The notes beneath the pieces were generated by a model. The model was not told where the DNA came from. It did no database searches and saw only the letters and a list, made by a program, of their open reading frames with translations. Made by a program: the position numbers and the translations under genes. 64,000 nt of DNA from Symbiodinium sp. CCMP2592 (lineage: Eukaryota; Sar; Dinophyceae; Suessiales; Symbiodiniaceae), in assembly GCA_905221615.1 (NCBI GenBank), contig CAJNDT010002001.1, forward strand, positions 712,881 through 776,880. The letters run 5' to 3'. Numbering within the stretch: the first letter of the stretch is position 1; each line of letters begins with the position of its first letter. Positions 1 through 61,273 of this stretch are shown here, in pieces.

Positions 1-608
1 GTTATTACACTCCCAAATGAGTACCTAACCAAACAAACAGCCGCAACATTAACACCACCAATCGCCAACCACGCAAATGCGGAAACATGGTAGTGGCTGC
101 CCGAAAAACGCAGGCACCGGGGTCTTAGCCCTCATTAGTATATGAGAAGCTACGATTCAAGAACCTCTCTACTAATGAAACTTGACGCTCACCAGCATAG
201 ATAGAATCATCAAGGTAACCGCACCGACTGCAACACGGAAGGGTAGCAGCAGCAACAACAACAGCAACAGCAACAGCAGCTAATGGAGCAAGCGAGAAAC
301 AAACAGACACACGAAGTTGCCCAACGAACTGTTCGCGCATCTGCAAGCTCCAGGCTTCAATGATAAAGGCCCGCCTTTTGCTCGGATTTGCAAAAATCTG
401 CTGCAAGTGGAATGCTCAGGCACATTACGACGTCTCACTCCGCTTGGGCCTGCTGCGAGGCCGTGGCGATTCGGATGGCTGCAGAAGGCCTCCTTGGATC
501 CCTGTGACGAAAGGAACTGAAACCTGGGCGCTGAGGCTTGCAACTGCGAGCCGACAAGGGAGGAGTATGACGATTCGGAGTAGAAGTAGACAACAGCAGT
601 GGCAGCAG
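1..608. other. Unassigned DNA
   Basis: AAC/AGC-rich stretch near 245-285; nothing else recognised. Confidence 0.5.
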
Positions 609-616
609 TAGAAGTG

Positions 617-656
<40 letters not shown>

Positions 657-661
657 CAGTG

Positions 662-700
<39 letters not shown>

Positions 701-701
701 A

Positions 702-754
<53 letters not shown>

Positions 755-757
755 CCA
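609..757. repeat. (TAG)n trinucleotide tract
   Basis: Nearly uninterrupted TAG/AGT repeats. Long Val, Thr or Leu runs in all frames come from this, not from a gene. Confidence 0.95.
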
Positions 758-1080
758 GTACTGGTGATAGTGAGAGTGGTGATAGTGGCAGCAGCCGTAG
801 TAGTACTGGTTTTAAACGGAACAGCAGCCACAGTAGATGCAGCGTCCTTGTAGGCCGTAGTTGCTGGTCGGCGCGGGTGAAAAGCACATCAAATCACTTC
901 AACTGGATGGCGCTGGCAGCGAACAGTATGAAGCTAATTATGTAACCAAGAGACTTTGAGCGGAGGTTGTTGATGTGGTCGCTGCCGGCTTCCAGCGCTT
1001 CCTCTCGCTCCTGTCTGCCGGCTCTACGAACGAAGCAAACATAAGAGCATTGGCAACTGGAATGTCCACACGGAAAACAC

Positions 1081-1435
1081 ACTGCGTCTGCGTGTATGTA
1101 TGTATGGGTGTGTGTCTGTATGTAATTATGTGTGTAAGCACATCTGTATGTTATGTATGTACAGCATGTAGGTATGTAGGTACGTAATTAGGTAACCAGG
1201 TATGTGGTATGCACGTACGTATGTACGTGTGTATACTACATGTATGTGTACATGTGTATGTGTGTATCTGTGCGTGTGTGTGTGTGTGTATGTGTGTGTA
1301 CGTGTGTTTATGTGTATGTGTGTATGTGTGCTGTGTATGTCTACGATTGCATGTCCGTGTGTATATACATACATATATCTACATTTATACATATATATAT
1401 GTATGCATGTGGATGTGTATGTGTACCTCAGCATC
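1081..1435. repeat. TG-rich microsatellite block
   Basis: Mixed GTGT, TATG and GTAC repeats over about 350 bp. Confidence 0.9.
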
Positions 1436-1588
1436 CATAATTGCATGCACAAATATTTACGCACACTTCCCAATTCCCTTCCCAACAGTGGAGTTCAGTA
1501 CTTGCAGATACATCATGATATCTATAATAGTTTTAACACCGCAGATGATACTAACAAGTACTCGGAAGAAGCACGCACACATCATGTA

Positions 1589-1706
1589 CATATAATACAT
1601 ATATATATATATATACACTTATGTAGATATGCATATATACATATATATATGTATATGTAGTATGTATGTATATGTATATATACATACATATGTATATGTA
1701 TGCATG
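1589..1706. repeat. (TA)n/(TACA)n tract
   Basis: ATATATAT and TATGTATA repeats. Confidence 0.9.
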
Positions 1707-1719
1707 CTGACACACAAAG

Positions 1720-3079
1720 GCACGGGTTGAACAGTTTGAAGTCCCGACGAGAACACACACTTTGCGAGCCCCTGCCCCAAATTGACGCATAAGACCTTGA
1801 GCATGGTTCGGGGCATCATGTGATGTTTTTTGCAGCTTGCTGCAATGTTGGCAGTTATTCTGCGCATTTGCCGTCATATGTGAACCTCCAACCCTGTGTC
1901 AAGGCAGTTTCAACAGAAGCGACTCTGCCTAGAAACCGGATACTGGGAAGCTGGGTAGTCTCGACCATCCCCATCAACTAGCGGTCGCGCCACAAAAACC
2001 CGCGAAACACTCTGCCTGTATCTCCTTTTCCTGCGCGGCAAACTCCTCTGTCACATCCTGTTCTCAGGGCCCGCCAGTAAACCCAAGTTGAATGACACAA
2101 CGAAGAAGTGGCATCAGCATTCAAGTTCAATCATGATGACAAGAGCATAGGAAAATCAAGAAAAAAAGAAGAAACAATACCAACACAAGAGATATTGGGA
2201 AAGACGGCTTGGGCTAGAAGAAAGGTTCATCGTTCATCATACTCTTATTCGCGGCTAACATAATCTGGAAAAAGCTGCTTTGTTCTCATTACAGAGTTGT
2301 TGATAAGCGCAGTGTTGCTGTGACGGCATGGTTTGCTTCAGCAATCGGCCGGCGATCAGCAGCGGTCGGTAAATGAGCTTACTTGACCTCTGTCGGTCTG
2401 AATGAAGACACGCAGCTAACATCGGTCAACAGCAGAAAACCGAGAACAGTCATCAATACCATACAGCCGCAGCCGGTCTACAAACAACTATGGACAACTT
2501 GCGATCCTCCACTCCAAACAAGCCCTGCGCATGCGCCTGCACCTTTCGATCCGTCTCCTCCCGGACCTTTGCAGCTTCAAGCTGCGCCTCTGCAGAAAGG
2601 TAGAGATGCTGAGACAAATCGTGCCAGCTAGCCTCAGCTGAAAGCTGCATGATTAGAATATTCCGTTATTCTCGAGTCCGAAACCTTACTCTGATAAAAG
2701 CTCTGTCCTGAGGCGGGGCGGCTAACATTCATGGTGCCTGCGCCGGTCCTTCTGCATCTTGCCATGCTATCACAAACCGATTAAGAGAATCTTCCAAAGA
2801 CCTCCTGCAAAGCTTAAAACCCAAAATCGCACAGAGCCCTGAGCACGATCGTCATCGACTTTCCCTGTCCTGATGGATCCGGCCACGGAGAGTCTTCTCC
2901 CTCAGGACCGCAAGTTTTGGATGTTCTCCCCCTTTTTTGCACATGCTTTTCGGAGCCCCCTATATGATGATGGCTCACGGTCAGCAGTGAAAACCATCTG
3001 ATTGTACCTACGATCACGGGCGCTCTTCGATTTGTGAGAGCTCTTCCCAGTACGACTGGCAAAGTGTTTTTTTATGAGA
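1720..3079. other. Unassigned DNA left of element 1
   Basis: No supported gene. Short frames have no recognisable domain. Confidence 0.5.
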
Positions 3080-3084
3080 ACTGC
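3080..3084. repeat. Target site duplication ACTGC, left copy
   Basis: ACTGC immediately outside the LTR; the same five bases follow the other LTR at 14947-14951. Five bases is the usual copia integrase stagger. Confidence 0.85.
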
Positions 3085-3275
3085 AATCAAGAGGGAAGGA
3101 AGGTACTTAAACCCGGCCAACCCTCTAAAGAACCAGGGCATCTAGCTGCATTGCCCTTCTTTTTCTTGAGCCAAACATAATCCGAAGTCGCACTTGAAAC
3201 GCTTCAGGAAGAAACCTCTGAAGCTAACCTCTCATACATGCTCTGCTGGGTCTCTGGGGTCGTGTTCTTTTAACT
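3085..3275 (-). repeat. 3' LTR of element 1
   Basis: Exact copy of 14756-14946. On the minus strand it is preceded directly by the purine tract GAGGGGGG. No substitution separates the two LTRs by eye, which is the basis for calling the insertion young. Confidence 0.93.
3165..3175 (-). promoter_or_regulatory. Spliced-leader-like 11-mer in the 3' LTR
   Basis: Minus strand TTTGGCTCAAG equals the last 11 bases of the dinoflagellate spliced leader as I remember it (ending ATTTTGGCTCAAG). The match stops there. It could be a relic of a trans-spliced leader copied into the element, or chance. Confidence 0.35.
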
Positions 3276-3283
3276 CCCCCCTC
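3276..3283 (-). other. Polypurine tract of element 1
   Basis: Minus-strand GAGGGGGG directly abuts the first base of the 3' LTR. This is where plus-strand DNA synthesis would be primed. Confidence 0.8.
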
Positions 3284-3318
3284 GCCAGAGTCAACTGCAG
3301 ACTACGGAACTGTACAAT

Positions 3319-3396
3319 GGGGCGCTTAAAGCAGCCCCCTAAGCACACGGGCGCCTACGGCAGCCCCCCTAGCGGAAGAGCGCTAAAAGCAGCTCC
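3319..3396. repeat. Three tandem-spaced microhairpins in the 3' untranslated region of element 1
   Basis: Copies at 3319-3338 (GGGGC/GCCCC), 3348-3367 (GGGC/GCCC) and 3377-3396 (GAGC/GCTC), between the Gag-Pol stop and the polypurine tract. They are outside coding sequence, so amino-acid selection cannot explain them. Confidence 0.8.
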
Positions 3397-3426
3397 CTCC
3401 GGCAAGCTGTGCAAAAGTGAACGTCG

Positions 3427-6400
3427 CTACTTGGGACTAGACCCCGAAGTGGGAGAGGTGGTAGGGCCACTACCGGCTTTGGTCTTGAGTTGTCTCGTGT
3501 CTACCAGAACCTCGGGAAGCTTCTGGCGCATGCCTAACAACTTCAACGCATTATCCCACTTTTGTGGTGGAAGTGCTTTGGTGAAGATGTCGGCAGCCTG
3601 CAAGTTTGTATCGACATACTCAATGTCTACATCATCCTCATCAATCACCTCAGAGATGGAACCCAAATTGACCTTATGGGTGCGCGCTATGTGCCTAAGC
3701 TTCGGCGAATAGCCCTTCTTTGCAACTAGGATCGTAGCCTGGTTGTCCTCATGAATGACTAACCTGATCGGATAGTCGAGGATAGTCTGCCAGAGCTGCA
3801 ATGCCGGAAGTGCTTCTTGGAAGAGGCTATGAGCTAAAGACACAATCTCGGACTCTGTGGTACTGCGACTCACAGACGTCTGGCGCTTGGACACCCATGC
3901 AAGAGGAAAGAAGGTGTTGGGACCTTTTAGGACTAAGAAACCTCCACTGGTGGATTTGGCATCGTCCCTTTCCCCTGCAAAGTCGGCATCAACGTAGAGC
4001 GCAAGATGCAGCTCCCTTGGCCCGTCCGATACAGTGCCTACAAGGCGGTGGGTCTTAGTGGAATCGATGTAGCTTATCAGGCGAAGAAGCTTCTTATCAT
4101 CGTTCCTCGACCACTTTTGCACCTTGGTCGCGAGGTCACCTATCGGCTTGACTAAGTCAGGACGCGCAAGTCTGCCTAGCCAAAGGGCCTTCATTAACAC
4201 CTTACATGCATTAGGAGCAAGCTCCCCTGCGATCTCCTCTTGGCTCACAGGAAGTGAAGCCTCTGGAGCAAAGGGAGTGGCAGCATGTTTTAGAGCCTTA
4301 AGGCCAGTGAGGCCCTTGTAAAGGTCTACGGTCTGTTGCGCATAGTCAAACATATCAAACGCCATGGCACCCCTTAATGCGCCTAGGGCAGCATTCTCGG
4401 TGCCTTCAGGCTCGGCGTTGATAGTGCAATGATTGCGACCTAAGATCCGATACACAGGCTCTGGGGGTTCTACATCAACAACCTTACACAAAGCATCCCA
4501 AAACGGCTGGTGCTCCTCCTGTGGTCCAGAGAGGGTAAGATCATCAACGTAAGTGGAAAGAAGGAGCTTAGTCTCAGGAAACCAAAAGTTACCTGGATAT
4601 TCCGGCAGTTCTTGTCCACCCATATTCCTAAGAACCTCCTTAAGGTGTTTCTCCCACAGTCCGCCTGCTTCTAGGTGGCCGTACAGCGCGCGTAGAAGCA
4701 GCACTACTGGTTTTGCAAAACACTCACGCCACCAAGCAGGACGAAGTTCAGGTGGTAGCTCTATCCAAGTTTGGTACTTGGATTTAAGAAGAGCTTGCAC
4801 ATACGCTTTGACGGCGTCTGCGGCACTGGACTGATGGCCAGGTAAGCTACCGTAAGCTAAACAGGCATTAAGTCCCTGAACAGAGGTGGGGTTTGCACCT
4901 AACTCTCTGTAAACCGCTGCGGCGCCCTCTTCGTCCTTCGCACAGTCACCCCGGTACACGATTCGGCCTTTAACCTTCTGAAGGTGCTTGGCAAGTTCCC
5001 AAAACTTGATGGACGCAATGCTCATCAGCTTGCCGAAGTGTACCTTAGTGCCAGTGCGGCGCGCTTGCGCTTGGACGCTAGCGTATTCCTGCGGGTTCGT
5101 TTCGTCCCACACTGGAACTGCGCGAAGACCGTCTGCTTCCTGTTTCACCGCATTGAGGGCCTCAGGTGAGGAGAGCATTTCGGCCCGAGAGAGAAGTTTC
5201 GTCACCATTGCAGACACCTCCTTTGAGGGTGCTTCCTTAGGTATGCCATGAACTGCACACACAAGGGCGGAAAGGTCGACGACCTCTTCTACGAGCTTAG
5301 AAGCCTCCTGGTCGGACTCTATTACGGCGGCAAGGTCCTCGTATCCGCTGAGAGCGGAAACGTGCTTCAGTTCCTGTTCTTTTTCGCGGTGTTCAGTGGT
5401 TGTGGAAGTGGGTAAGATCGGCATCGCAGGAACCGAGATATAGGCCCTACTGGGGTTGATGGCAAAGGCGATGCGCTCACACATCTCTTGCGTGTACAAC
5501 CCAGTGAGTTCAAGATCCTTTCCCCGAGCCTCGACGTGCTCACTGGGATCATGGTTGCAGGTGATCCCTTCAAAGGCTGATACGATAGATGTGGATGTTG
5601 TCATGAGGCGCCATGGTTTCTTAACCGGCTGCCCCCCTGAAGCAGACACACCTAACATACAACCATCAAAGTCAACAACCTTAAACCTAGGATCCTTAAA
5701 GAACTCCTTTACATCAGGCCTCTTCCATGAATCGGAATACCTCGGCCACTCAAACGTGACGTCAATCCCGAGGTCAAGCGCGGTCTTAGCATGCTCAACA
5801 AACTGTGCGAACAACTTCTTAGACCTGTGAATCTTTTGCAGGAGTCGTGCGCGATACTCACCGCCACCTCTCTTAAACTGAACGCGATGCCACTGGCATC
5901 CAGAGGTGCACGGCAGACACACCCAAAGGTGACTCTTAGGACACGCACTGAACTGTTCGTGCAGCTGGGCGGCCACAAGCTCGTTCTCAACGTCCAAAGT
6001 TTCTTTGGCGAGGCGTACGTGGGGTACTCCAAGCTCTTCGTTCACACGCCCTAACATTGAGTTTGGGGAACATGCGTACTCAAAGACAGTCGTGAGCTTA
6101 GTGGGCTTCCCTCTCCTTCGACTCCGCTTGTTACCTCTCCGTTGCGGTTTGTCCTGCCCAAAACGCGGTGTAGAGGGAGCAGCTAAACCAAACACAGGTA
6201 GGTTCTCCTTTCCACGCACAGTGTCTAGGAGACACGTGGTACTGGCAGTGCACGGTGGCAAGGCAGCGCCTGCAGAAACAACGCTCACTGTAGCGGAAGC
6301 TGGGGGTACAGGAGTACTGGGTGCAACGCTTGGAGCAGGAGTTTCAGGAGCAGCGGTTGGAAAGGGAGTCTCTGGAGCAACGCTAGGCGCGGGAGTCTCT

Positions 6401-9400
6401 GGTGACTCTCCCAGGGCGCGAAGCGCAGCCCTCCTTGCAGCAGCTTCTTCCTTGTCTGCTTTAACAAGTTCGGCAAAGCGTGCTCTGCAAGTGTCGGTGT
6501 GCTTTGTGGCCTTTCCCCTACACGCTAAGCAACCCGGAGTCTCCCCGAACTTAACAATCCTATCGGCGGTGATATAAACCGTCCTAACGCCAGGTGTTCT
6601 GGGCGCCGGCGGCCCGATGCTTTCAAGAGCAAAGGGAATCTCCCGCAATGGGATCTCGGGCAGTGCGCCGGAGGCAGCACTCAAGGTGGAGCCGTCTACA
6701 AGCGCCTTGCGGGTTGCATTCGCGACTGGGAAGATGGGCGGACCGTCCTCTATGTACAACTCAGGTTCTGGCACGTCGTGGACAGACGTGTTGCGTTTAC
6801 CACGAAAGTCGTTGTAATCAAGAACCTTAACAACATTGCGATAGCGCATGCCTGCGTCTATCCGCCACCCTAGGAAAAGACCTGGTGACATGTTGGGTTC
6901 AAGAGTGCGCTTAGAACCTTTAGAACGGTACCAGACGAGTTGCCCAAAACAGGCCCTCTTCCCATTAAAGGGCTCCTTTGTGAGGGCCTCCCACTGTGTG
7001 ACCCCCCCTAGCGGTGCCGTCCTGTCAAAGGACAAAGAAAGGCACGCGTACGGGTACGAGTAAGAATGCATGTCGTAAGGAAGTCCACTCTGGAGGTGGA
7101 TAGCACGGCAGCACTCCTTTTCCTCGCGGATATCCCTCTCGAGTAAGGCGTTGTGGGGCCATCTGTTAGGGAGAGAGGAATCCGGGGTCAGGCCTACCTC
7201 CTCTGCCGCTACGATCAACTCGCCAGCTTCATCTAATTTAATGAGGCAGGTCGGCGACATCTCGTTTGCTCTTAGACCTATAAAATGCCGGAAGTTGCGT
7301 GCATGCTGGGCAGCACCCCTACGCGTCATAGGGTACGCAACTCTAGCCCCTGAGAAAACATCCCTTACTACATGATGTGACTTAACCCCTCCAGTTCCTA
7401 TGCCTCGGTGTTCATCACCTTTTGCCATGATGACATCATCAGTGGCAAGCTGTTGGAACGGAGCAGTGGGGACATCAATCATGTCATCTGCCTTGGCATC
7501 GGGCTTGTGAGCCACACGCATTGAGGTGGTCTTGGCGATGTGACAGATCTTACAGAAGGGATTCTTAGGAAAGTGGGTCCTAAGATGCTTCTCAGAAGTG
7601 GCTTCGGCTCTAAGTTCTTCGGTCTTGGAGTGGGGCTCTGGAGGAGGCGGCAACGGTGGTGGTTGCTCTGTGGAAGGGGCGCTCGGAGCAGCCCCCTCAC
7701 GCGAACTAGAGGCGCCTGAGGCAGCCTCCTTTGCTGTTGTGCCTTCGGCAGGCTGTTGCGTACTTGCGGGCTTTCCCTTGAAGAGTTCAGGAAAAAGTTC
7801 TTCTTCGGAGCTTTCACTGGCAGCTGTCTCACCTACAGCGCCTTCACGAAAAAGCCGCTTTGCTTCAGCCTTCTTCTCTGCATGCTTCTCGACGACGTCG
7901 GCTTCCCAATCATAATCGCCAGAGGTTGTGCGGGGATAGCTTGCCTCAGCCTCTTCAAGATCTGCGACCTCGAAATCGCTGAACGACACAGTATCATCAT
8001 CCTTCGGCGCGGGGGATGCCGATGCAGTAATGGGGCTTAGGCTTGGGCTCTGCTCCCTCACTGCCGGGCGCAATGTCTCCTCGAACTGGGGGACATATTC
8101 TACGACCCTGGTCGCATTGATCCTCGCTTTGCGCGGGATACGAAGCTTGCAGCGGTGCACGTCCTCTTTCTTCACGAAGTACGGACGGTGCTCTCGAGGG
8201 TCCCAGACAAACAAGGATCCCTCGTCAAGGACAGCTTTACCTACAGAAAAGGCTGGCGGACACTCCTTAAGTACGTAGACCTGCTCCTCTGAAGGTAACA
8301 ACCGGCTGCCCTCAAACGCGAGGCTGTGAGTGCCTTCACGCGCGCCGCCACCAGTGGCAAAACCAACAGGTGTCTCGGAGCGGGTGACACAGGAAAGGGC
8401 TTTGGAGGAAAGCGCCTGGCGACCTATCAAATGCCTACCTGCTGCCGTGTCCCAAAGCCAGGTGATCTTGCCATCCTGGTTCAGCTCGGCGGGGAGAGCA
8501 TTGATTAACGGTGCCGTTGCAGCGTTCGCCTTCGCCTTTGCCTTAGGCTTAGCCTTAGCGTCTGGCTTTGCAAGTGACTTGGGCTTAGGACCAGTGTACT
8601 TGTTCTTGCTGTCGTGAAGGAACGGACAGGGGTCGCCTTTGCAGGCGCCGAACGCCCAAAACATACACGGTGTCTTGGCCTTCTCCTCCGGGGTCATGTT
8701 CCTGGCGCTTTTGGCCTGAGCAGATCTGGGCGTCGTATCACCACCTTTTGGGCTTCGTGGTGTTCCGTTGCCCTTTCCGCCCTTTCCGCCTTTGCCCTTA
8801 CCCTTTGGGGCAGGTGCACCTGGGACCTCAACCTCGGGTTCGCCCTCGTCTTTCTTTTTCTTTTTCTTCTTTTTCTTCTCCTTCTTCGGCGGCTTGTCGG
8901 TAGTGCCTCCTTTCGGTGCGCCTGCGGCAGCACCCGGTGCGGGTGTTGCGGGCACACTTGGCTTTGAAGGCTGGGAGGTGGAAGTCAAGGTCTCTGGCTT
9001 CTGTTGCAAGGACTTATCGAACTCCTGTCGATTGACACGCTGCTGGTGCAAGTCGATTGCAATGTCCACGCGGTTCCACAACCATGCGGCGGTGCGACGG
9101 TGTGATCCCGGTCTCGCTTCCCTTGCCTTCTCTACCTTGGGCTTAAGAACTGAAACCTTTTCGAACTCATCGATCAGATGATTGAAGATCGTACTGTCCT
9201 TGGGGAGATCCTCTACAGGAACGGTATTGGCGACGTAGTGATACTTATCACGAAATGCCTCCAGATGGGAAATACCATCCCCTCCGATCCTAATGTTCAG
9301 GAGGTTACGTTCAGCTAACATACCCATACGATCACGTTCCAACTGGAAGTGACTGTATATGGCGCGCAGCATGCAGCGCCCATTGGGCATGCCACCCGAC

Positions 9401-10062
9401 TGAAGCCTTTCAGACTCAACCATCTGCTGGAAAAGCAACCCGAAGCGACCGTGGCGACACACTTTGATAAGCTTAGCGGCGATCTCGCGGTCAAGGCGAG
9501 GGAAGCGCCCATCCTTACAAAGTGCGGCAGGCTCCTTCTTTAGGCAATCTTGTGCCCAGATGTACACCTCGTCGCCTGGGGTCTTCTGGAGTTTTCCAAT
9601 GGCCATCAAGGTCTGATTCACAAACCCTCTCGCTTGCGCTGCGTTTTGTGGCGGGTTTGGAAAGGATAAATCAGAAAGCGATTTCACTCTGATGGTGTCC
9701 TCCTCAAGCTCTGCATTGGTCTTCGGAGCCGCCGCGCTTGAAGCTGCGGCCCCATCACCGTCAGGGGCTGGATCATCACCTCCATCTTTGTTGCAGGTGA
9801 GCTCTGGGCACTCCTCTTCTGCGTGTTTCTTAGAACCACACATCCTACATGCTGGGTGCTCGGACCTTGCTGAGGAATCAGATGAGGACGATGAGCTGGA
9901 TGATCCGCCTGATCCTGGTGAGCCTGGTGGCGCTGTAACTTGAGCGGTGCCTCCTAGGTTCAACGTGGGTACCTGAGGTGGTGGGTCGGACTGTGCTTCT
10001 GCTGGTGCGCTTGGGGCTGCACCCGAAGGCGCGGCTGCACTATATACCAGACTGCGCGGCAC
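3427..10062 (-). CDS. Copia-type Gag-Pol polyprotein of element 1
   Basis: 2,211 codons without a stop; the listed start is GTG, and the frame is open from 10080. In order: CCHC knuckle CRMCGSKKHAEEEC (72-85), capsid-like helical region (about 115-370), Lys-rich linker, CCCH finger (about 466-482), protease DTAAGRHL (about 538), HHCC integrase zinc site (about 826-845), integrase core with ATDDVIM, KLDEAGE and ALLERD (about 873, 943, 971; D-X30-E), a CCHC-like site GCLACRGKATKHTDTC (about 1175-1190), an extra domain (about 1320-1530), RT with YVDD (about 1836), and RNase H with YVDADFAG, TESEIVSLA, HEDNQAT (about 2022, 2069, 2102) and ADIFTKAL. It makes and inserts the element's cDNA. The knuckle sitting before the capsid is unusual. 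All catalytic residues appear intact. Confidence 0.93.
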   Translation of the reverse strand: MPRSLVYSAAAPSGAAPSAPAEAQSDPPPQVPTLNLGGTAQVTAPPGSPGSGGSSSSSSSSDSSARSEHPACRMCGSKKHAEEECPELTCNKDGGDDPAPDGDGAAASSAAAPKTNAELEEDTIRVKSLSDLSFPNPPQNAAQARGFVNQTLMAIGKLQKTPGDEVYIWAQDCLKKEPAALCKDGRFPRLDREIAAKLIKVCRHGRFGLLFQQMVESERLQSGGMPNGRCMLRAIYSHFQLERDRMGMLAERNLLNIRIGGDGISHLEAFRDKYHYVANTVPVEDLPKDSTIFNHLIDEFEKVSVLKPKVEKAREARPGSHRRTAAWLWNRVDIAIDLHQQRVNRQEFDKSLQQKPETLTSTSQPSKPSVPATPAPGAAAGAPKGGTTDKPPKKEKKKKKKKKKDEGEPEVEVPGAPAPKGKGKGGKGGKGNGTPRSPKGGDTTPRSAQAKSARNMTPEEKAKTPCMFWAFGACKGDPCPFLHDSKNKYTGPKPKSLAKPDAKAKPKAKAKANAATAPLINALPAELNQDGKITWLWDTAAGRHLIGRQALSSKALSCVTRSETPVGFATGGGAREGTHSLAFEGSRLLPSEEQVYVLKECPPAFSVGKAVLDEGSLFVWDPREHRPYFVKKEDVHRCKLRIPRKARINATRVVEYVPQFEETLRPAVREQSPSLSPITASASPAPKDDDTVSFSDFEVADLEEAEASYPRTTSGDYDWEADVVEKHAEKKAEAKRLFREGAVGETAASESSEEELFPELFKGKPASTQQPAEGTTAKEAASGASSSREGAAPSAPSTEQPPPLPPPPEPHSKTEELRAEATSEKHLRTHFPKNPFCKICHIAKTTSMRVAHKPDAKADDMIDVPTAPFQQLATDDVIMAKGDEHRGIGTGGVKSHHVVRDVFSGARVAYPMTRRGAAQHARNFRHFIGLRANEMSPTCLIKLDEAGELIVAAEEVGLTPDSSLPNRWPHNALLERDIREEKECCRAIHLQSGLPYDMHSYSYPYACLSLSFDRTAPLGGVTQWEALTKEPFNGKRACFGQLVWYRSKGSKRTLEPNMSPGLFLGWRIDAGMRYRNVVKVLDYNDFRGKRNTSVHDVPEPELYIEDGPPIFPVANATRKALVDGSTLSAASGALPEIPLREIPFALESIGPPAPRTPGVRTVYITADRIVKFGETPGCLACRGKATKHTDTCRARFAELVKADKEEAAARRAALRALGESPETPAPSVAPETPFPTAAPETPAPSVAPSTPVPPASATVSVVSAGAALPPCTASTTCLLDTVRGKENLPVFGLAAPSTPRFGQDKPQRRGNKRSRRRGKPTKLTTVFEYACSPNSMLGRVNEELGVPHVRLAKETLDVENELVAAQLHEQFSACPKSHLWVCLPCTSGCQWHRVQFKRGGGEYRARLLQKIHRSKKLFAQFVEHAKTALDLGIDVTFEWPRYSDSWKRPDVKEFFKDPRFKVVDFDGCMLGVSASGGQPVKKPWRLMTTSTSIVSAFEGITCNHDPSEHVEARGKDLELTGLYTQEMCERIAFAINPSRAYISVPAMPILPTSTTTEHREKEQELKHVSALSGYEDLAAVIESDQEASKLVEEVVDLSALVCAVHGIPKEAPSKEVSAMVTKLLSRAEMLSSPEALNAVKQEADGLRAVPVWDETNPQEYASVQAQARRTGTKVHFGKLMSIASIKFWELAKHLQKVKGRIVYRGDCAKDEEGAAAVYRELGANPTSVQGLNACLAYGSLPGHQSSAADAVKAYVQALLKSKYQTWIELPPELRPAWWRECFAKPVVLLLRALYGHLEAGGLWEKHLKEVLRNMGGQELPEYPGNFWFPETKLLLSTYVDDLTLSGPQEEHQPFWDALCKVVDVEPPEPVYRILGRNHCTINAEPEGTENAALGALRGAMAFDMFDYAQQTVDLYKGLTGLKALKHAATPFAPEASLPVSQEEIAGELAPNACKVLMKALWLGRLARPDLVKPIGDLATKVQKWSRNDDKKLLRLISYIDSTKTHRLVGTVSDGPRELHLALYVDADFAGERDDAKSTSGGFLVLKGPNTFFPLAWVSKRQTSVSRSTTESEIVSLAHSLFQEALPALQLWQTILDYPIRLVIHEDNQATILVAKKGYSPKLRHIARTHKVNLGSISEVIDEDDVDIEYVDTNLQAADIFTKALPPQKWDNALKLLGMRQKLPEVLVDTRQLKTKAGSGPTTSPTSGSSPK
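5465..6100 (-). other. Extra domain between integrase and RT (possible methyltransferase-like fold)
   Basis: Within Gag-Pol residues about 1320-1530. It shows FEYACSPNSMLGR (glycine-loop-like start), HLWVCLPCTSGCQWHRVQ, an FEWPR motif, GCMLGVSASGGQPVKKPW and CNHDPSEH. The arrangement strand-loop, then a Pro-Cys motif, then an E-W-P motif recalls Rossmann DNA methyltransferases, but the canonical PCQ and ENV motifs are absent. Methyltransferases inside dinoflagellate retroelements have been reported; whether this is one is inference. Confidence 0.35.
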
Positions 10063-10080
10063 TAGCTGCGACCAACTTCG
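10040..10080 (-). promoter_or_regulatory. +1 overlap between ORF-C and Gag-Pol (candidate recoding window)
   Basis: The Gag-Pol frame opens right after a TAG at 10083-10081 and ORF-C stops at 10042-10040, leaving a 41-base window in which a ribosome could move +1. The Gag-Pol frame has no ATG until about residue 74. I do not see the Ty1 slippery heptamer CTTAGGC. Slips at GCT-AGT or at ATA before the stop are conceivable but unproven. Confidence 0.5.
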
Positions 10081-11182
10081 CTAGATCGGAAACCAACTTA
10101 GCCAATTCATCAACCCTCTGGCTGGCCTCCCCCCCTGGTGCGCCAGCGGCTGCACCCTCTTGGGGCGCATCGCTCTCGCCTGTTGGTTGTGCGACAAGCG
10201 GGGTGCTTAAGGTCTCTTGTTCCTCAGGCACTGGCTCGATCACAGGGGTTGTGGGTTGTTGGACCGCATCATTTTGGCTTGTGTCCGGGGAGAAAGACAT
10301 CTCCGGAAAAGAGAGACGGGTTCTTGTGGGGGTTCGCTGCGCTTGGGCGTTGCTACTCTCCACAAACTTAGCAGACAGATCACGGTATCGCTCGGCCATG
10401 ACGGCCATTGCCTCCTCGTGACGCCGCTGCATCGACTCCATCTCGTCTGCTAGCCTCACGATATCAGCGTCACGTTGGCGCAAACGCTGGACCACTTCCT
10501 GCCTATCGACCTCAGCCTGCTCCCGTGCCAAAGTGGCTTGCCGGAGAGCTTCTGATAAACCCCTAGCCTCACCCTCAACTAACCTTATTCTAGCTTGTGC
10601 TGAATGGTTGCTTTGGGCTATGGCTTGCTGGGCCTCACCTTGAATCATTGAGACCCGTTGTTGAGCCTCACGAGTGGTGGCATCAATGGCGGATTGGGCT
10701 TCTTGCCTAAGGCTAGCTTCTCGATACCTAGCATCATCCACGATACCCTGCGCAGCCCGTGCAATCGTCTGGGCCTCGTCGCGGTACTGTGCCTCGGCCG
10801 CTGCAGCTTGAAAGCTAGCTTGCATTACGGCCTCCCTAGCTTGAGTAACTGTTTGCTGTTCCCTCTCTGCAGCCTGGTGCGCGAGGGACGCAGCACCCAA
10901 GGCAACGCCGGAGGCGTGGTGGGCGTGTGTCACGGCGGCACCTGCAAGAAAGGTTGCTTGTGTTGCGCTAAGCTCGGGACCCCTTTGTGGGGGAGACGCC
11001 GCGGAGGACGAGCTATACCCCTCATTCCTTTGTGGTGTGGGGGCTGGTTCGCGGATCCTAAGAATGGTTGCTGCTGCCGGGACCAAGGCCTGGCCGCTAA
11101 AAAGCTCTGGGTCGCTAAAGGAGGATTCCCCTGATGTCCGGCTTCGGCTTCGGTCTTCTGATGGTGGGGAGATGCCTGGCAT
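10040..11182 (-). CDS. ORF-C of element 1: long coiled-coil, Gag-like accessory protein
   Basis: First ATG at 11182 gives 380 residues; the frame is open from 11230. After a Ser/Pro/Arg-rich start, about residues 75-280 are a continuous Ala/Gln/Glu/Arg helix with heptad character (for example QAEVDRQEVVQRLRQRD, EMESMQRRHEEAMAVMAER), a strong coiled coil. The C-terminus has GAAAGAPGG (hairpin-encoded) and a short helix VDELAKLVSDLAKLV. It ends with TAG at 10042-10040. The Gag-Pol frame overlaps its last 41 bases in the +1 frame, as Gag and Pol do in yeast Ty1. It may multimerise as part of the particle. No family recognised. Confidence 0.7.
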   Translation of the reverse strand: MPGISPPSEDRSRSRTSGESSFSDPELFSGQALVPAAATILRIREPAPTPQRNEGYSSSSAASPPQRGPELSATQATFLAGAAVTHAHHASGVALGAASLAHQAAEREQQTVTQAREAVMQASFQAAAAEAQYRDEAQTIARAAQGIVDDARYREASLRQEAQSAIDATTREAQQRVSMIQGEAQQAIAQSNHSAQARIRLVEGEARGLSEALRQATLAREQAEVDRQEVVQRLRQRDADIVRLADEMESMQRRHEEAMAVMAERYRDLSAKFVESSNAQAQRTPTRTRLSFPEMSFSPDTSQNDAVQQPTTPVIEPVPEEQETLSTPLVAQPTGESDAPQEGAAAGAPGGEASQRVDELAKLVSDLAKLVAASAAQSGI

Positions 11183-11233
11183 GGCTTCACCTCCTGAAGC
11201 TTGAGCCTTTGAGCCCAAACAACACCCTGTCTA

Positions 11234-11768
11234 CGAAAACCGCCTATCGGCCGGGACCCGAAAGAATCCCCAAAAGAACCTTAGGGCAAAAGGGAGGGGG
11301 CAAGAAAACAGGACCCCTCACGCAACCACTCTCGAAAAGACTTTTGTGACTGGTACGCACGCGGTGGCTGGCCCGTTTGGGCGCCAAGCGTCTCTGAAAG
11401 AAGTGTGTGTGCCGACGGCTGTGCGCAAAATGCAGCACACACACACGCAAAAGTAACGTACAATACCCCTAAGGACCACCACCCAGCACTAAAACCACAA
11501 TGCACCCTAGACCTGTTACCCGGCCCGGTGCGCCACAGGCAGCACCCTAGGGCGCTGCGAAAGGAGGTGTTGTGCTGAACCGGCGGCCTTCCGAGAGGCA
11601 GGGAGCTGACGTTTGCAACCCCTATGCTACAGAACCCAAGGCACTAAACCACTAAGGTGGCCCGGTGCGCTTGGAGCGGCACCCTCGGGCACCGCAAGCT
11701 GGCAAGACGGTGGCGGCACGCAGGCTGGAGCAGCCGGCCCGGTGCGCCTAAAGCAGCACCCTAGGGCG
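11234..11768 (-). other. Internal spacer of element 1
   Basis: 535 bp between ORF-B and ORF-C with no coding frame I can support. It holds three hairpin repeats (11527-11546, 11664-11683, 11741-11760). It could be an internal promoter, an intron or an untranslated leader for ORF-C; nothing in the sequence decides. Confidence 0.5.
11527..11760. repeat. Three microhairpins in the internal spacer of element 1
   Basis: Copies at 11527-11546, 11664-11683 and 11741-11760, all with GGTGC/GCACC outer stems but different loops (ACA, TGG, TAA). Confidence 0.8.
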
Positions 11769-12689
11769 CTACCTCTCGTATAGCAGCTCTTGGGGCTCGA
11801 GGTGACGAGCCGTGGGCAGGTTGTTGCGCCCACGGCGCCTGATCAGAGCACTTGCCTGGTTGAGCTCGTAGATCAACTGGTCGACGCCTCCTCCTTTCTG
11901 AGCCTGTACCGTGAGTGCGCCGGTTTTGGCGCACTCCTTGATAATGCCTCGGTTGTCGTCGATCACGACGCTTGCTGGCGGCACTATCTGGCACAACTGC
12001 TGCGCTTTTCCGTCCGGTCCTGTGCGCTGGTACGTCTGCCCAATGCTAAGGTTGATGCTCAAAGGCAACGCCACCCTTAAGCACTCTAGGGCCTCCTCGA
12101 GGAAGTGGAAGCGGTACCAAGGAGCAGTGGATGGCGTGCTGTAACTCAGAATTGCCAATCGCAGTGGCTTGTGTTCCTCGCAGAATTCCTTTAGCGCGGC
12201 CACAAATTCAGTATTGAAATACCCGTGGGAACCAGGCTTGGTGTCCCAGGTGGCACCTCTGGACTCGATCCAGGCCTTGTCCAAGACGTGGTGCCAGTCG
12301 AATACAATAGTGGCCTCGGTGCGCGTAGCAAGCACCCTCTGCGTGGAACTGGCAGCCGCCGCGCTTGAAGCTGCGGCCTCGGCGTTCTCCTCGTCACGCG
12401 TCTGCTGCGCCCAAGCGTGGTACGCTAGCTTCTGACGATTGCCTGTGACGATCGGCGGTGGAGCCTTTGTGCTCGCCTTGGGCTGCTCTTGGCCTCCCCT
12501 GCTGATATTGGCCACAAACACGGAGTGGGGCGGGCCCTTATATGCTGCTGTTGCTGCCGACCCCGTTGGCGTGGGCGGCGCTGGCGCAGGAGGCGACTTA
12601 TACCTAACCCCGTACTTATCGGTCGGAGGCACCTTTGAGGGAAGCTTCGGCTGTGGTTGCCGCGCCTTTGGCAGACTCTCCTTCGTCAC
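11769..12689 (-). CDS. ORF-B of element 1: HAD-phosphatase-like protein lacking any Met codon
   Basis: About 306 codons from a GTG at 12689; the frame is really open from 12737, right after the ORF-A stop. Residues 1-115 are Pro/Ala-rich. From about residue 127 there is a HAD-like pattern: TIVFDWHHVLDK (motif I, with the nucleophile Asp, but the usual second Asp is His), LAILSYSTPS (motif II, Ser) and ASVVIDDNRGI (motif IV, two Asp). HAD enzymes are phosphohydrolases or phosphotransferases; loss of the second motif-I Asp suggests an altered or binding-only role. There is no ATG anywhere in the frame. Two or three hairpin repeats lie in its 5' part. A HAD-like domain is not a normal part of copia elements. 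The fold call rests on motifs only. Confidence 0.6.
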   Translation of the reverse strand: MTKESLPKARQPQPKLPSKVPPTDKYGVRYKSPPAPAPPTPTGSAATAAYKGPPHSVFVANISRGGQEQPKASTKAPPPIVTGNRQKLAYHAWAQQTRDEENAEAAASSAAAASSTQRVLATRTEATIVFDWHHVLDKAWIESRGATWDTKPGSHGYFNTEFVAALKEFCEEHKPLRLAILSYSTPSTAPWYRFHFLEEALECLRVALPLSINLSIGQTYQRTGPDGKAQQLCQIVPPASVVIDDNRGIIKECAKTGALTVQAQKGGGVDQLIYELNQASALIRRRGRNNLPTARHLEPQELLYER

Positions 12690-12737
12690 CGGTGCGCGTG
12701 ACCTTGGGGAATCGCCCTCAGAAGCTGCACCCTCTGG

Positions 12738-12740
12738 TTA
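12738..12740 (-). other. Single in-frame TAA between ORF-A and ORF-B
   Basis: ORF-A and ORF-B share a frame (codon starts equal 2 modulo 3) and only this TAA separates them. The next codons read PEGAASEGDSPRSRAP before ORF-B proper. ORF-B contains no ATG, so readthrough of this codon (or splicing across it) is the simplest way to express it. A plain nonsense mutation is the alternative. Confidence 0.6.
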
Positions 12741-14597
12741 TGAAGATGCGTGCCGCTTGGGTGGCCACGACCCGCTGCGCCCTCGACCCCGGTGCGCCTG
12801 TGCAGCACCCTTTGGGGGAGCTGCTTCTGCCCGGGGCGGGGTTATTGTGCGCTCTCTGGGCCCTGCCTCCTCAACGGCTTCTATGGGCTCTGCCTTTGCA
12901 CCTCGCCTGGCCTGACCTATGCCTGTGCTTGCCTCGGCTGTCCTGGGCCTGGCCTTCGGAGGCGGGCGCGGCACCCTCAATGGTGCGCTGGCTGCGGTGG
13001 GGACACCGGGTGCCTTAGAAGCGGGGGTAAGGACCACACGGGGGCGCCTCGTTGGAGGCTCTCCCTCAGGTGTCGCGGGCCGCCGCTGGCCTAAGGCCGC
13101 TGTCTCTTCCACCTCGGCCTCAACGATCTCTCCCTGCTGGAACGGTCGCCTCTGTGGGGGTGCCCTAGGTGTTGCCGGTGCGCCTGAGGCAGCACCCCGC
13201 TGCCTTGTGTCTTCTTCGGAAGAGCTGGTGTCTATGCGCGCTACGGACACACCCCTAGGAACCCCACTAGCTGTGTAGACCTCCCGGTAGGAGCTGGGAT
13301 CGATCCACGCGTCGTCTGGCAGATCAAACGGATCGGGTGCACTTAGGGCTTCTTCTGCGTCCCCTTGGTGCGCGGTGCGCTGCACCCTCGGGGGGGGCAC
13401 GGCACGACGCTGAAAGGTGGGAACCGCACCGGAATCCCTAACCCGAACCCAAGCACCCTGACTATCAACCCGAACCGTTGGGAAGGTTTCGGTGGGAGGT
13501 GCAAGGATAAGTGGCCTGCGGGTCACACCCCGGCCCCTGCCAAGATTCACACGGATCTCTCGCGTTGGGGCTGCGGCTTCCGAAGTGGCTGGAGAAACTG
13601 TTGCCTCCGAGGCAGGGTGCACGTCTATTGCCTCGTCTTCCTCTGCTGCCTCTTCCTCCTCGGCGCCTTCTGCCTGTCGGCCTTCGGTTGCTGGCTCGTC
13701 GTCTGGTGCGCCTTCGGCAGCACCCCGGTCGTCACCTTGGGCAACCTCGACCTCTACCTCTACCTCCTCGGTCTCCTCCTCGCCGGCTGCCTGCTCGGGC
13801 TCTGCGTCTTCGGCGTCCCTAAAAGAGGCAAACACCGAGCCGCGGAGCCTAAGCTCCTCCAGGCGTGCCTCCTCTTGCGCTCGCCGCGCCGGCGGGGTGC
13901 GGACGCGCCTGGCAGATCGCAGGGAATCTTCTGCCGGATTCCCGCCAGCTCTGGACAGATCCACCTCGCCCTCGGCAGCCGGTGGCTCGGATGATGCTCT
14001 CGCGCCAGTGTCTTCAACGGTCTGTTCTGGCTCTGCTGGCACCCTCCTCTGCCTCAGTGGGTCGCTCCGGCCCCTGTAATAAAGGTCCCGCGTGGGTCCC
14101 CTTATTCCAAGAGCCGGCGCCTTCGGAGGTGTGGGCGGCTGCGCCGGTGCGCCAGGGGCTGCACCCTCGGCGGGCGCGCCTGACGCTTCCTCGGCTGGCT
14201 GCTCCTCCTCCTGTGGTGCGCTTGAAGCAGCACCCCCCGACCCGGCTGCCTTTGCTGCGGCTTTCGGCCTCCAGCGAGCTCCTGACCCAGTGGCAGGCTC
14301 TTCCGCGACGTCCGAAAAAGCAGCCCACAACTCAGGATAGTACTCGACCAAATCTGCCCACACAGGGTGATATACGTCGACTTGCTCTGTAATCTGGCCG
14401 AACCTTATAATCGTGTCGTAGTGGGCCTCGGTAACGTCTTCAAAGCTCCTCCTCTGCACGATTATATCTTGTACCCTCTCAGCAAGCTGGATCAGCGCGT
14501 CCTGCGCTTGGTAAAAGTGAAGCTTCCTCCTCTTCGCTCCTGCGCGGCCCCCTCTGCAGGGTTTGTCTCCGGCAGGTGCCTCGCCCTTTGGTGGCAT
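12738..14597 (-). CDS. ORF-A of element 1: acidic low-complexity protein
   Basis: A 619-residue frame beginning at a true ATG at 14597, the first long frame after the 5' LTR. Residues about 20-100 form a compact, mostly helical domain (FYQAQDALIQLAERV, then a Trp/Tyr-rich stretch DVYHPVWADLVEYYPELWAA). The rest is disordered: runs of E, A and P, an acidic stretch (EEVEVEVEV, AEEEEAAEEDEA), RGRG motifs, and several GAAxGAP-type heptads encoded by the 20-nt hairpin repeat. It ends in TAA (12740-12738), and the same frame stays open afterwards into ORF-B. I recognise no family. Position would suit an accessory Gag-like or nucleic-acid-binding protein, but that is inference. Confidence 0.7.
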   Translation of the reverse strand: MPPKGEAPAGDKPCRGGRAGAKRRKLHFYQAQDALIQLAERVQDIIVQRRSFEDVTEAHYDTIIRFGQITEQVDVYHPVWADLVEYYPELWAAFSDVAEEPATGSGARWRPKAAAKAAGSGGAASSAPQEEEQPAEEASGAPAEGAAPGAPAQPPTPPKAPALGIRGPTRDLYYRGRSDPLRQRRVPAEPEQTVEDTGARASSEPPAAEGEVDLSRAGGNPAEDSLRSARRVRTPPARRAQEEARLEELRLRGSVFASFRDAEDAEPEQAAGEEETEEVEVEVEVAQGDDRGAAEGAPDDEPATEGRQAEGAEEEEAAEEDEAIDVHPASEATVSPATSEAAAPTREIRVNLGRGRGVTRRPLILAPPTETFPTVRVDSQGAWVRVRDSGAVPTFQRRAVPPPRVQRTAHQGDAEEALSAPDPFDLPDDAWIDPSSYREVYTASGVPRGVSVARIDTSSSEEDTRQRGAASGAPATPRAPPQRRPFQQGEIVEAEVEETAALGQRRPATPEGEPPTRRPRVVLTPASKAPGVPTAASAPLRVPRPPPKARPRTAEASTGIGQARRGAKAEPIEAVEEAGPRERTITPPRAEAAPPKGAAQAHRGRGRSGSWPPKRHASS

Positions 14598-14606
14598 ATG
14601 CTAGCC

Positions 14607-14666
14607 GGTGCGCACAAGGCAGCACCCCACTAGCAATCTGCCCACCAGCGCGCCTAAGGCTGCGCT
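14607..14666. repeat. Two microhairpins in the 5' leader of element 1
   Basis: 14607-14626 (GGTGC/GCACC) and 14647-14666 (AGCGC/GCGCT, inner GCC/GGC) just upstream of the ORF-A start, in the leader of the genomic RNA. Confidence 0.8.
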
Positions 14667-14740
14667 CTTGCTATGGCAGGGGGAAGAACCACTAAAACCC
14701 TGCGGCCGGGTTCAAGTAGGAAACCAAAGGAAACAAAGAG

Positions 14741-14757
14741 CTACGGCTGATAACCAA
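14741..14757 (-). other. Candidate primer binding site of element 1
   Basis: At the 5' LTR inner edge the minus strand reads TTGGTTATCAGCCGTAG. The TGG could pair with a tRNA CCA end. TGGTTATCAGC resembles the initiator-tRNA-Met site TGGTATCAGAGC used by many copia elements, with one extra T. The match is imperfect, so the primer is uncertain. Confidence 0.4.
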
Positions 14758-14946
14758 TCAAGAGGGAAGGAAGGTACTTAAACCCGGCCAACCCTCTAAA
14801 GAACCAGGGCATCTAGCTGCATTGCCCTTCTTTTTCTTGAGCCAAACATAATCCGAAGTCGCACTTGAAACGCTTCAGGAAGAAACCTCTGAAGCTAACC
14901 TCTCATACATGCTCTGCTGGGTCTCTGGGGTCGTGTTCTTTTAACT
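14756..14946 (-). repeat. 5' LTR of element 1
   Basis: Identical over 191 bp to 3085-3275. On the minus strand it starts AGTTAAAAG and ends CTTGATT, so it lacks the usual TG...CA ends. The boundaries are fixed by the ACTGC duplication just outside and the purine tract next to the other copy. An alternative boundary one base further in (a shared C) is possible but would break the duplication. Confidence 0.93.
14836..14846 (-). promoter_or_regulatory. Spliced-leader-like 11-mer in the 5' LTR
   Basis: Second copy of TTTGGCTCAAG, in the transcription-initiating LTR, about 110 bases from its upstream edge. If the transcript is trans-spliced, or began as a spliced copy, this is where the trace would be. 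Confidence 0.35.
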
Positions 14947-14951
14947 ACTGC
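14947..14951. repeat. Target site duplication ACTGC, right copy
   Basis: ACTGC immediately outside the right LTR, matching 3080-3084. Confidence 0.85.
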
Positions 14952-15205
14952 AGGCCAAATTCCGATGTTGAAGAAACCCAAAGAAATCAAAGTCACGCCG
15001 GTGTGCCCCCTTCGTCCAAAGAAATAGGAGTCAGGAGCACCGAGACACCATTCTCAAAAACATGCCCGGCCTCTATCGTTTAAGGATTATGAGCATCTGC
15101 ATGCATACATCACTGTCTAACAATGCTTCAATCAATGTTACTCAGGCCCACATCGGTTGATGGACCCACGTCAACGAACAACGAAAGTGGCTAATGTCGG
15201 TGCTG

Positions 15206-49316: not shown

Positions 49317-49464
49317 TATGAAAGCCGCGCGTGCGGCACACAACAGGCTATCCGGTTTTCCTGCCAGAGCCAAGTCTGGGTCAAGGCCTAGACGGCAGAA
49401 GGACGTGGCAGCTCGTGTGCACACACACTGTTCGGGACCAACGGCAACAGCCTAGGCTTTCACA
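49317..49464 (-). repeat. 3' LTR of element 2
   Basis: Identical to 57797-57944. Its first bases (minus strand) supply the last codons and the TAG stop of the pol frame. Confidence 0.93.
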
Positions 49465-49950
49465 TCGATCTTCTTCTCTTTGTTGGTCCGAAACAGAGTG
49501 ATGAGCACAGCTGCTTCACAATCCAATGCCCGCAATTGACGCCCGTATTGGGCTTCCTTCTCGAGAAGCCTCCAGACGCCCCGACCGCTTTGGTCGTGGT
49601 AAAGGGCAAACGTCGTCCGCAGCGGATATTTCGCTGCCTCAAATCGTGGCTCAGGCCGCCGAAAACTCTTGGCACGAAAGGCCACTTGGATGGCCATGTC
49701 GTCTCTCTTGTGCCATCCCGGTTGGGTGCTCAAACCCTGGAGGAACCCGATCATCGGATCCCCAGAGGAAACCTCGGTCCCGCTCAGAACTTCCGGTCCT
49801 TCTCGCGCGGGCTTCTTGGGCTTGATCGTTTGCCGCACATACTTCTCGTCGAAACAGTAGCTCCACTCGCCGTCGGTCAAGGTCTGCCTCATGTGGTCCT
49901 GAGGCATATCCTTCGTCCCGGCGTCCACGAACATGTTGTCCACTTCAGGC
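49452..49950 (-). CDS. RNase H tail of element 2 pol, ending in the LTR
   Basis: Continues the RNase H end (DNMFVDAGTKDM) in a shifted frame; one missing G in AAGTGGACAAC would explain it. Then about 150 residues, including FRRPEPRFEAAKYPLRTTFA and a Lys-rich end. The last codons VKA-stop are the first bases of the 3' LTR, so pol has no 3' untranslated gap before the LTR. Confidence 0.65.
49469..49481 (-). other. Polypurine tract of element 2
   Basis: Minus strand AAAGAGAAGAAGA just before the 3' LTR. It is also coding sequence for the end of pol. Confidence 0.65.
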
Positions 49951-53265: not shown

Positions 53266-53719
53266 CTGGTCGCCCGGCTCCCGAGGAGCAGGCAGGGAGG
53301 CCGCTGCGTTTTTGGTGGCCGTTTCTCCTCACACACACACTGCACCTCAGCTGCTTTGCCGCTATCACTGCCTCAAGCGGGGCACCTGCAATCACGAGCG
53401 CCCGTGCCAGTCTCTTGGGGCTCCTGTGGCCCGTGTTCTCGTGCAGCCGGCGCACAGCCTGTCTCACGGCCGCCGACACCGGCACGTCCTTTTCCACTTC
53501 GGTCGTCACGGCTCCGTCCTCCGAGTCCGACCCGTCGTGGCCCACCGGAAAGTCACTCTCTAGGTCCGTCTCCGCCGCAAGCATTTCAGTCGCATTCCCC
53601 GCGCGGTGGTCCGCCTCGAACTGCTGCTCCATCGCCTCCAGCACGGCGGGCCCTGGAAGTCGTGGTTCCCCGTCCGGAAAGCCTGGGCGACCAAGGGGCT
53701 CGACGTCATGTAGCGACAC
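53255..53719 (-). CDS. Integrase N-terminal zinc domain of element 2
   Basis: Acidic stretch, then the HHCC pattern RLHENTGHRSPKRLARAL ... LRCSVC, the pre-integrase zinc site. The frame then breaks in a GTGTGTGTG run near 53325 and again at CCTCCCTGCC near 53290 before the catalytic core resumes. Confidence 0.7.
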   Translation of the reverse strand: MSLHDVEPLGRPGFPDGEPRLPGPAVLEAMEQQFEADHRAGNATEMLAAETDLESDFPVGHDGSDSEDGAVTTEVEKDVPVSAAVRQAVRRLHENTGHRSPKRLARALVIAGAPLEAVIAAKQLRCSVCVRRNGHQKRSGLPACSSGAGRPDRP

Positions 53720-56485: not shown

Positions 56486-56603
56486 AGTACGGTCGACGAG
56501 CTCCGCCCGGAACGCCCTTGCCAGCCGACTTGCCAGAGAAGCTTGGCTGAACGGCGTTCGGTCCCGACCGTCCTGACCACGAGCTCGCGGCCGAGCTCCT
56601 CAA
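56395..56603 (-). CDS. Gag continuation, shifted frame (element 2)
   Basis: About 70 codons of protein-like sequence: basic/Ser-rich, then FASFRAKQAFAAEAEEE and an acidic run. It bridges the Gag frame above and the knuckle/protease frame below, each one shift away. Both joins look like small indels. Confidence 0.55.
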
Positions 56604-61148: not shown

Positions 61149-61273
61149 AACAGCCTGAACCCGAAACCCCCAAGGCGCACCCCCCAGCAAGGCCCGGCCG
61201 TCGAACCGACCGAAGCAGCTGCTGGGGCTCCATCAAAGCAGAGACCTCAGCGGTCGGAGAGGTTTAGGAATAG

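Follow-up and report, generated by a model that had tools for sequence, protein, structure and literature searches.

The genomic RNA of bacteriophage MS2, which encodes its own shell protein, carries many similar stem-loops of about 20 nucleotides along its length, and the cited part of the source describes these sites as degenerate (PMC4751978). Among long terminal repeat (LTR) retrotransposons, Ty1 has a Gag that binds its own RNA and many other RNAs with little specificity, and its packaging region near the 5' end of the RNA has a pseudoknot; the part of the source drawn on here describes no hairpin repeated along the RNA (PMC8396678). Here we describe an LTR retrotransposon on the minus strand (3084-14946) of a 64-kb stretch of DNA from the coral-symbiont alga Symbiodinium sp. 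CCMP2592, the whole of which we call the window. Like MS2 it has many similar stem-loops over one genomic RNA (26 sites, 23 with a full outer triplet), and it shares with Ty1 an LTR organization and a putative RNA-binding Gag. In contrast to MS2, the core is near-uniform in all 26 copies, the bulge is mostly U or A and the host is an LTR retrotransposon; Gag binding is a prediction and no homology is claimed. The hairpin is a selected single-strand structure, and the strand is most likely RNA. On the sequence evidence we would give about an even chance to the reading that all copies belong to a single functional hairpin family, which acts in the sense RNA of the element while single-stranded and is bound most likely by the element's own Gag.

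Parts of this architecture are familiar from other systems. The MS2 operator has a 5'-bulged base and the Q-beta operator a triloop, and the iron-responsive element, which is also read by protein, has a bulged base under a short upper stem and a conserved six-base loop. The window hairpin likewise carries its bulge below a short upper stem, but its triloop is free. Organelle palindromic micro-repeats and double-hairpin elements are short GC-rich hairpins in many copies; the window hairpins differ from them in lying on one strand, at shared sites, inside reading frames and with compensatory stems. Among the open-licence papers listed, none describes a repeated bulged hairpin of this kind, judged by titles and the openings of abstracts.

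Architecture and copy number of the hairpin

We searched for the bare core GC.GC.{5}GCGC, in which pairing is not required; the pattern for the hairpin family is GGTGCWGCYNNNRGCGCACC. The core occurs at 26 sites on the sense strand of the element, at two on the antisense strand, both unpaired, and at none on either strand of 14947-64000 (the count took in the element and 14947-64000, with 1-3083 outside it). The sites, from the leader to the 3' end, are listed here with one further candidate; L142, L149 and L179 are related copies.

14647..14666, minus strand, hairpin in the leader; core and pairing
14607..14626, minus strand, hairpin in the leader; third inner pair is C/T and does not pair, but is C-G in L149
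14215..14234, minus strand, hairpin in ORF D; also compared in relatives
14146..14165, minus strand, hairpin in ORF D; L179 loses the inner third pair
13705..13724, minus strand, hairpin in ORF D; also compared in relatives
13367..13386, minus strand, hairpin in ORF D, other reading phase; core and pairing
13177..13196, minus strand, hairpin in ORF D; core and pairing
12358..12377, minus strand, hairpin in ORF C; core and pairing
11741..11760, minus strand, hairpin between ORFs C and B; has one U.G pair, which is C-G in L179
11664..11683, minus strand, hairpin between ORFs C and B; bulge C, U in L179
11527..11546, minus strand, hairpin between ORFs C and B; core and pairing
11420..11439, minus strand, hairpin between ORFs C and B; poorly kept in L179
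10872..10903, minus strand, possible extra hairpin in ORF B with a five-base loop, outside the 26; 8/8 pairs, 26.9 bits, E 0.0013
10137..10156, minus strand, hairpin in ORF B; inner pair swapped for another pair in the 68% family
10004..10023, minus strand, hairpin at the polyprotein start; inner C/A, L179 has C-G and bulge G
9731..9750, minus strand, hairpin in the polyprotein; two outer pairs swapped in the 68% family
9361..9380, minus strand, hairpin in capsid coding sequence, other phase; lacks one pair in L179 and may be a chance match
8915..8934, minus strand, hairpin in the polyprotein; also compared in relatives
7709..7728, minus strand, hairpin in the polyprotein; core and pairing
7676..7695, minus strand, hairpin in the polyprotein; core and pairing
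6662..6681, minus strand, hairpin in the polyprotein; also seen in close copies
6413..6432, minus strand, hairpin in the polyprotein; also seen in close copies
4376..4395, minus strand, hairpin in the polyprotein, between reverse transcriptase (RT) and RNase H by eye; also seen in close copies
3996..4015, minus strand, hairpin in RNase H coding sequence, other phase; one G.U pair
3377..3396, minus strand, hairpin in the 3' untranslated part; has one G.U pair, which is A-U in L142
3348..3367, minus strand, hairpin in the 3' untranslated part; outermost pair G/G
3319..3338, minus strand, hairpin in the 3' untranslated part; also seen in close copies

In the sense strand each unit reads N3-GC-W-GC-N-NNN-N-GC-GC-N3', with complementary outer triplets and a complementary third inner pair. 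In the RNA this becomes a G followed by a stem of 8 bp, interrupted on its 5' side by one bulged base and closed by a free triloop. The G directly precedes the hairpin in all 26 copies, at a position that played no part in site choice. The bulge is flanked by invariant G-C and C-G pairs, the two adjoining outer pairs being constant in each copy; two inner pairs are likewise constant, and these four pairs belong to the criterion by which the 26 sites were picked. The outer triplet is fully Watson-Crick in 23 of the 26 core sites, where chance would give 1 in 64 per site, and two of the remaining three depart by G.U. The third inner pair is also Watson-Crick in 23 of 26 sites and takes all four types (C-G 11, U-A 7, A-U 3, G-C 2, with one U.G and two unpaired).

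The repeats had been reported in a first-pass annotation, whose pattern GCY-N3-RGC-W within complementary N5 and N5' finds, on the plus strand of the window, 17 sites with 5/5 outer pairs and two with 4/5, all in 3319-14666; three further sites with 3/5 pairs, one in the element and two outside, look like chance. The annotation claimed at least eight fully paired outer stems, and ten different fully Watson-Crick five-base stems are present; the inner-stem covariation it described is seen in the four types of the third pair. Its freely varying N5 was right as to the variable outer stems and wrong for the two outer pairs beside the bulge, which are fixed as G-C and C-G. The W is indeed an unpaired base, but because the element lies on the minus strand the RNA form is N5-W-GCY-N3-RGC-N5', with a 5' bulge.

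Several controls set this hairpin apart. A tighter core, GCGCY-N3-RGCWGC, occurs 19 times on the plus strand of the window, always within the element, and never anywhere on the window's minus strand. Fully paired hairpins with this layout (5+3 bp, triloop, one 5' bulge) number 20 on the sense strand of the element and 0 on the antisense strand, against a mean of 0.3 and a maximum of 1 in 40 dinucleotide shuffles, close to the roughly 0.2 that the annotation had expected. When 150 hairpin geometries were tried, this one alone stood out with its 20 copies (mean over geometries 0.56). A covariance model built from the 26 sites matched 29 places in the window (E up to 1), every one of them on the element's sense strand. 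Four of the 29 are new and weaker (26.9 to 17.3 bits), so 26 may be an undercount. An Rfam scan of 3000-15100 returned only a chance-level match to mir-455 (E 0.97; 20.7 bits, where the cut-off is 70). An extension of the outer stem into the flanks was not established, the mean best flank helix being 3.54 compared with 3.16 for randomly re-paired flanks (fraction 0.057); at leader hairpin 14607 one paired flank change distinguishes the window from L149, by eye.

Covariation was tested against shuffles that leave the shared descent of sites uncorrected. Over the 26 sites 98.6% of cells are paired (82.3% in shuffles), double-change cells number 32 (6.7 in shuffles) and the covariation score is 0.462 (0.117 in shuffles, at most 0.218 in slid controls). 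The number of pairs with any double change, four, was not unusual and was reached in 78 of 500 shuffles, because four pairs never vary.

Hairpins in related elements

We searched the host genome (1.098 Gb) for the RT/RNase H part of the element, and the comparisons below rest on fetched pieces. At least 67 matches were found: 14 are nearly full-length at 97-100% identity, the window included, six are at 68%, one is at 87% and one at 65%, and the remainder are 35 at 40-47% plus fragments. The copies recur at the same places in relatives. At seven sites inside the fetched stretches of the 13 other close copies the core is kept in 87 of 91 cases, and the changes fall mostly at loop positions, with one stem broken in L139. 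L149 (900-3042), an internally deleted copy in which the 5' leader is joined to RT sequence, keeps a leader hairpin with changed bulge, loop and inner pair.

L179 represents 7 kb of another copy, with 98% identity in RT and 85% upstream, and it keeps the core at 17 of 17 sites. Changes affect 7 of 272 stem positions, 0 of 136 invariant stem positions, 3 of 17 bulges and 11 of 51 loop positions, compared with 8 and 9 of 102 in the six-base flanks and 881 of 6546 (13.5%) outside hairpins (Fisher P, stems vs outside 8e-10, loops vs stems 7e-6). Compared with the window, L179 has gained pairing at two sites (11741 and 10004) and lost it at three (14146, 11420 and 9361). As a separate observation, the step from 98% in RT to 85% upstream (window 14946-8000) may mean recombination between element subfamilies.

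In the 68% family, where nucleotide identity is about 60-64%, two sites show compensatory replacement: at 10137 the third inner pair goes from C-G to U-A, and at 9731 two outer pairs are changed (GCCGC/GCGGC to GGTGC/GCACC). Both matches, which are only apparently homologous to the window sites, sit at the edges of local alignments. At the other comparable window sites this family has no hairpin; it has further hairpins of its own, mainly with a GGGC/GCCC stem whose outermost base is unpaired.

We also counted cores by group, collapsing identical 30-mers; some loci overlap and flanking host DNA is included. Group 1 takes in the window, its close copies, L149, L179 and, from contig C5214, the 65% copy. 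It has 60 distinct sense sites, of which 46 show a full outer triplet and 59 are preceded by G, and three antisense sites, none full. The 68% group has 15 sense sites (four full) and seven antisense sites (none full), and the 40-47% family has one sense and no antisense site in 54 kb (pieces of 5 of 35 copies). Run on L159-L178, the covariance model matched 23 places (E up to 0.1), each of them on the sense strand and none in the pieces of the 43-45% family. Three members of the latter (L173, L175, L177) were scanned for a geometry of their own; AT repeats swamped two and the third gave nothing outstanding.

Element 2 of the window (49889-56485, minus strand), which is copia-type with an RVT_2 match and about 61% G+C, has no such hairpin in the 49400-57500 examined, and no geometry exceeds two copies there; the annotation, too, saw no copies in it, in agreement with the lack of cores in 14947-64000. 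Genome-wide, the bare core has 11,104 matches against 4,420 for a backward pattern, a control that we did not use, the backward pattern being richer in CpG and an unfair comparison; in the first eight genome core places in contig order the outer triplet was full in 0 of 8. In viral contigs at least 120 stretches matched the pattern, each with a match by construction; three or more perfect hairpins of this geometry occur in 6 of 128 loci, with both strands pooled and at most four per locus, and we take this level as background. Protein searches of viral contigs gave 2 and 28 stretches matching a peptide pattern, none encoding a relative.

The element and its reading frames

The element comprises the following features:

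3084..3275, minus strand, 3' LTR; 192-bp direct repeat, 100% identical to 14755-14946
3427..10062, minus strand, copia-type polyprotein of 2211 aa; capsid-like domain, zinc fingers, reverse transcriptase
10040..11218, minus strand, ORF B, 392 aa; open reading frame
11769..12689, minus strand, ORF C, 306 aa; 12 relatives (52-73% identity), of which those named come from Symbiodinium, where the protein is conserved
12738..14597, minus strand, ORF D, 619 aa; low-complexity by eye
14755..14946, minus strand, 5' LTR; 192 bp, pair of 3084-3275

Both outer flanks of the LTR pair read ACTG. Ty1 belongs to the copia superfamily, and the element has two of the features expected of Ty1/copia members, LTRs and a copia-type reverse transcriptase (RVT_2). 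In the element's own protein the RVT_2 match scores 17.8 bits, under the cut-off of 31.6. Residues 1400-2210 of the polyprotein, the region searched, are 91-98% identical to the CCMP2592 proteins P0001, P0002, P0003 and P0005, and homologues such as P0013 (63% identity over 97% of the query) carry PF07727. CCCH and CCHC zinc-finger matches are both under curated cut-offs. A profile search gave no matches to protease or integrase; these domains and RNase H are presumed by eye from motifs in the translation, which would put them in the order protease, integrase, reverse transcriptase, RNase H. The Gag part of the polyprotein is probably a capsid fold plus zinc fingers, as modelled; Foldseek by itself did not recover the capsid fold. 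Several of the other copies have a longer open frame at the polyprotein, 2612 aa, as would fit a fusion with ORF B, where the window has two frames. ORF C has no Pfam match and contains what we take by eye to be HAD-like motifs. AAAxGAA is found in 8 of its 12 relatives, by eye at the place of the window AAASSAA at hairpin 12358.

Elsewhere in the window, 60710-61151 and other CCCTAAA arrays are degenerate telomere-type repeats inside the contig, and a 107-bp tandem repeat runs from 63660 to the window end at 64000.

Candidate readers and alternative explanations

Fixed bases around the bulge, free stems and many dispersed copies fit repeated sites of one RNA-binding protein. By analogy with MS2, the hairpins are probably repeated grip points for a protein such as the element's shell protein. 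The likeliest reader would be the element's Gag, with its probable capsid domain and zinc fingers; by holding the genomic RNA at sites dispersed from the leader to the 3' end, it would select that RNA and condense it into a virus-like particle in the style of the MS2 coat protein. The fuller proposal, that a dinoflagellate LTR lineage evolved a near-uniform assembly code of some 26 hairpins read by its own capsid, with signals of the MS2 kind arisen independently and shaping protein linkers, is tentative, and we would put it somewhat short of an even chance.

The same RNA hairpins might be read by a host factor or by the product of ORF B, C or D, in export, translation, stability or escape from silencing. 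This is possible, though we judge it unlikely. The hairpins are densest in places typical of regulation, with nine sites in 906 bp of non-coding sequence against 17 in 10.6 kb of frames (three in 151 bp of the 3' untranslated part, two in 157 bp of the leader and four in the 550-bp gap between C and B), and ORFs B, C and D accompany them in the window element. However, copies along 11 kb, polyprotein coding sequence included, seem more than regulation needs.

A second alternative, which we consider improbable, keeps the structure and changes the molecule: the hairpin would act in minus-strand cDNA, as single-stranded DNA, or in antisense RNA, for example as pausing or binding sites in reverse transcription. 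Local folding, computed with RNA energies, prefers the hairpin in 19 of the 26 contexts on the antisense strand (mean 0.62) and in 14 of those on the sense strand (mean 0.44), and in the 68% group A.C-type departures outnumber G.U-type by 4 to 2. In group 1, by contrast, G.U-type exceed A.C-type by 10 to 2, an excess that suits sense RNA, although the departures in neither group are independent, and the sites spread from leader to 3' end instead of lying just near the primer site or polypurine tract. In MS2, some packaging stem-loops must refold, according to the part of the source cited (PMC4751978).

The annotation had left open selection on a folded strand and a micro-element that spreads as a palindrome. 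Its first suggestion is strongly supported by the codon shuffles below and by the recurrence of copies at the same places in relatives, with compensatory changes. A palindrome that inserts itself is very improbable. Many near-identical GGTGC copies and the varied places of peptide copies in relatives' proteins speak for such an element, but the copies lie in one orientation (26 sense against two unpaired antisense), which makes a random inserter, or a role in double-stranded DNA, unlikely. Moreover, diverged copies share sites, the core is absent from 14947-64000, and site 3996-4015 consists of sequence that encodes RNase H residues, which relatives conserve. None of the seven pieces compared has a clean empty site, few close copies being readable upstream.

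Scarcely any weight remains for selection on an encoded peptide, a linker or protease site, with the hairpin as by-product. As the annotation had noted, the hairpins occur in coding and non-coding parts; of the 17 in reading frames, 14 share one phase and mostly read GAAx(G/S)AP or something close to it. Among the 120 relatives listed, of 123 found, 27 contain GAAx[GS]AP, with 59 occurrences in all, where three rearranged peptides score 0. However, nine of the 26 hairpins lie outside frames and three in other phases, and other stems encode AAASSAA, EAASGAS, SAASGAL, NAALGAL and RAALRAL. The fifth residue across 51 distinct GAA..AP peptides is S 31, G 19 and R 1 times, as pairing demands, since the codons AGC, GGC and CGC could pair. 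Synonymous-codon shuffling (1000 rounds, four frames, ORF B taken from 10064) destroys the hairpins: the means are 4.7 cores, 0.9 with a paired outer triplet and 0.22 fully paired, and the maxima 11, 6 and 3, against 17, 16 and 15 observed. The shuffled-codon comparison that could have undone the annotation's claim thus yields at most three fully paired copies. The by-product explanation is contradicted by the non-coding copies, the codon shuffles and the variant peptides, and we infer that selection acts on nucleotide structure, the peptide being what proteins tolerate, as linkers seem to.

Chance or base composition, to which the partly G+C-rich element (50-64% in 2-kb steps) might lend itself, is refuted by the dinucleotide-shuffle (0.3), all-geometry (0.56), antisense (0) and codon-shuffle (0.22) controls.

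Dispersed packaging signals, described as degenerate in MS2, are hard to spot in sequence, whereas the window sites are uniform enough to be seen by eye, and the strand, codon-shuffle and divergence controls agree. The element is a natural case in which multi-site RNA recognition by a retroelement could be tested cleanly, and it shows how an RNA structure can introduce a recurrent peptide, GAAx(G/S)AP, to proteins. Should a host protein be the reader instead, the hairpins would mark specific control of transposon RNA in a dinoflagellate.
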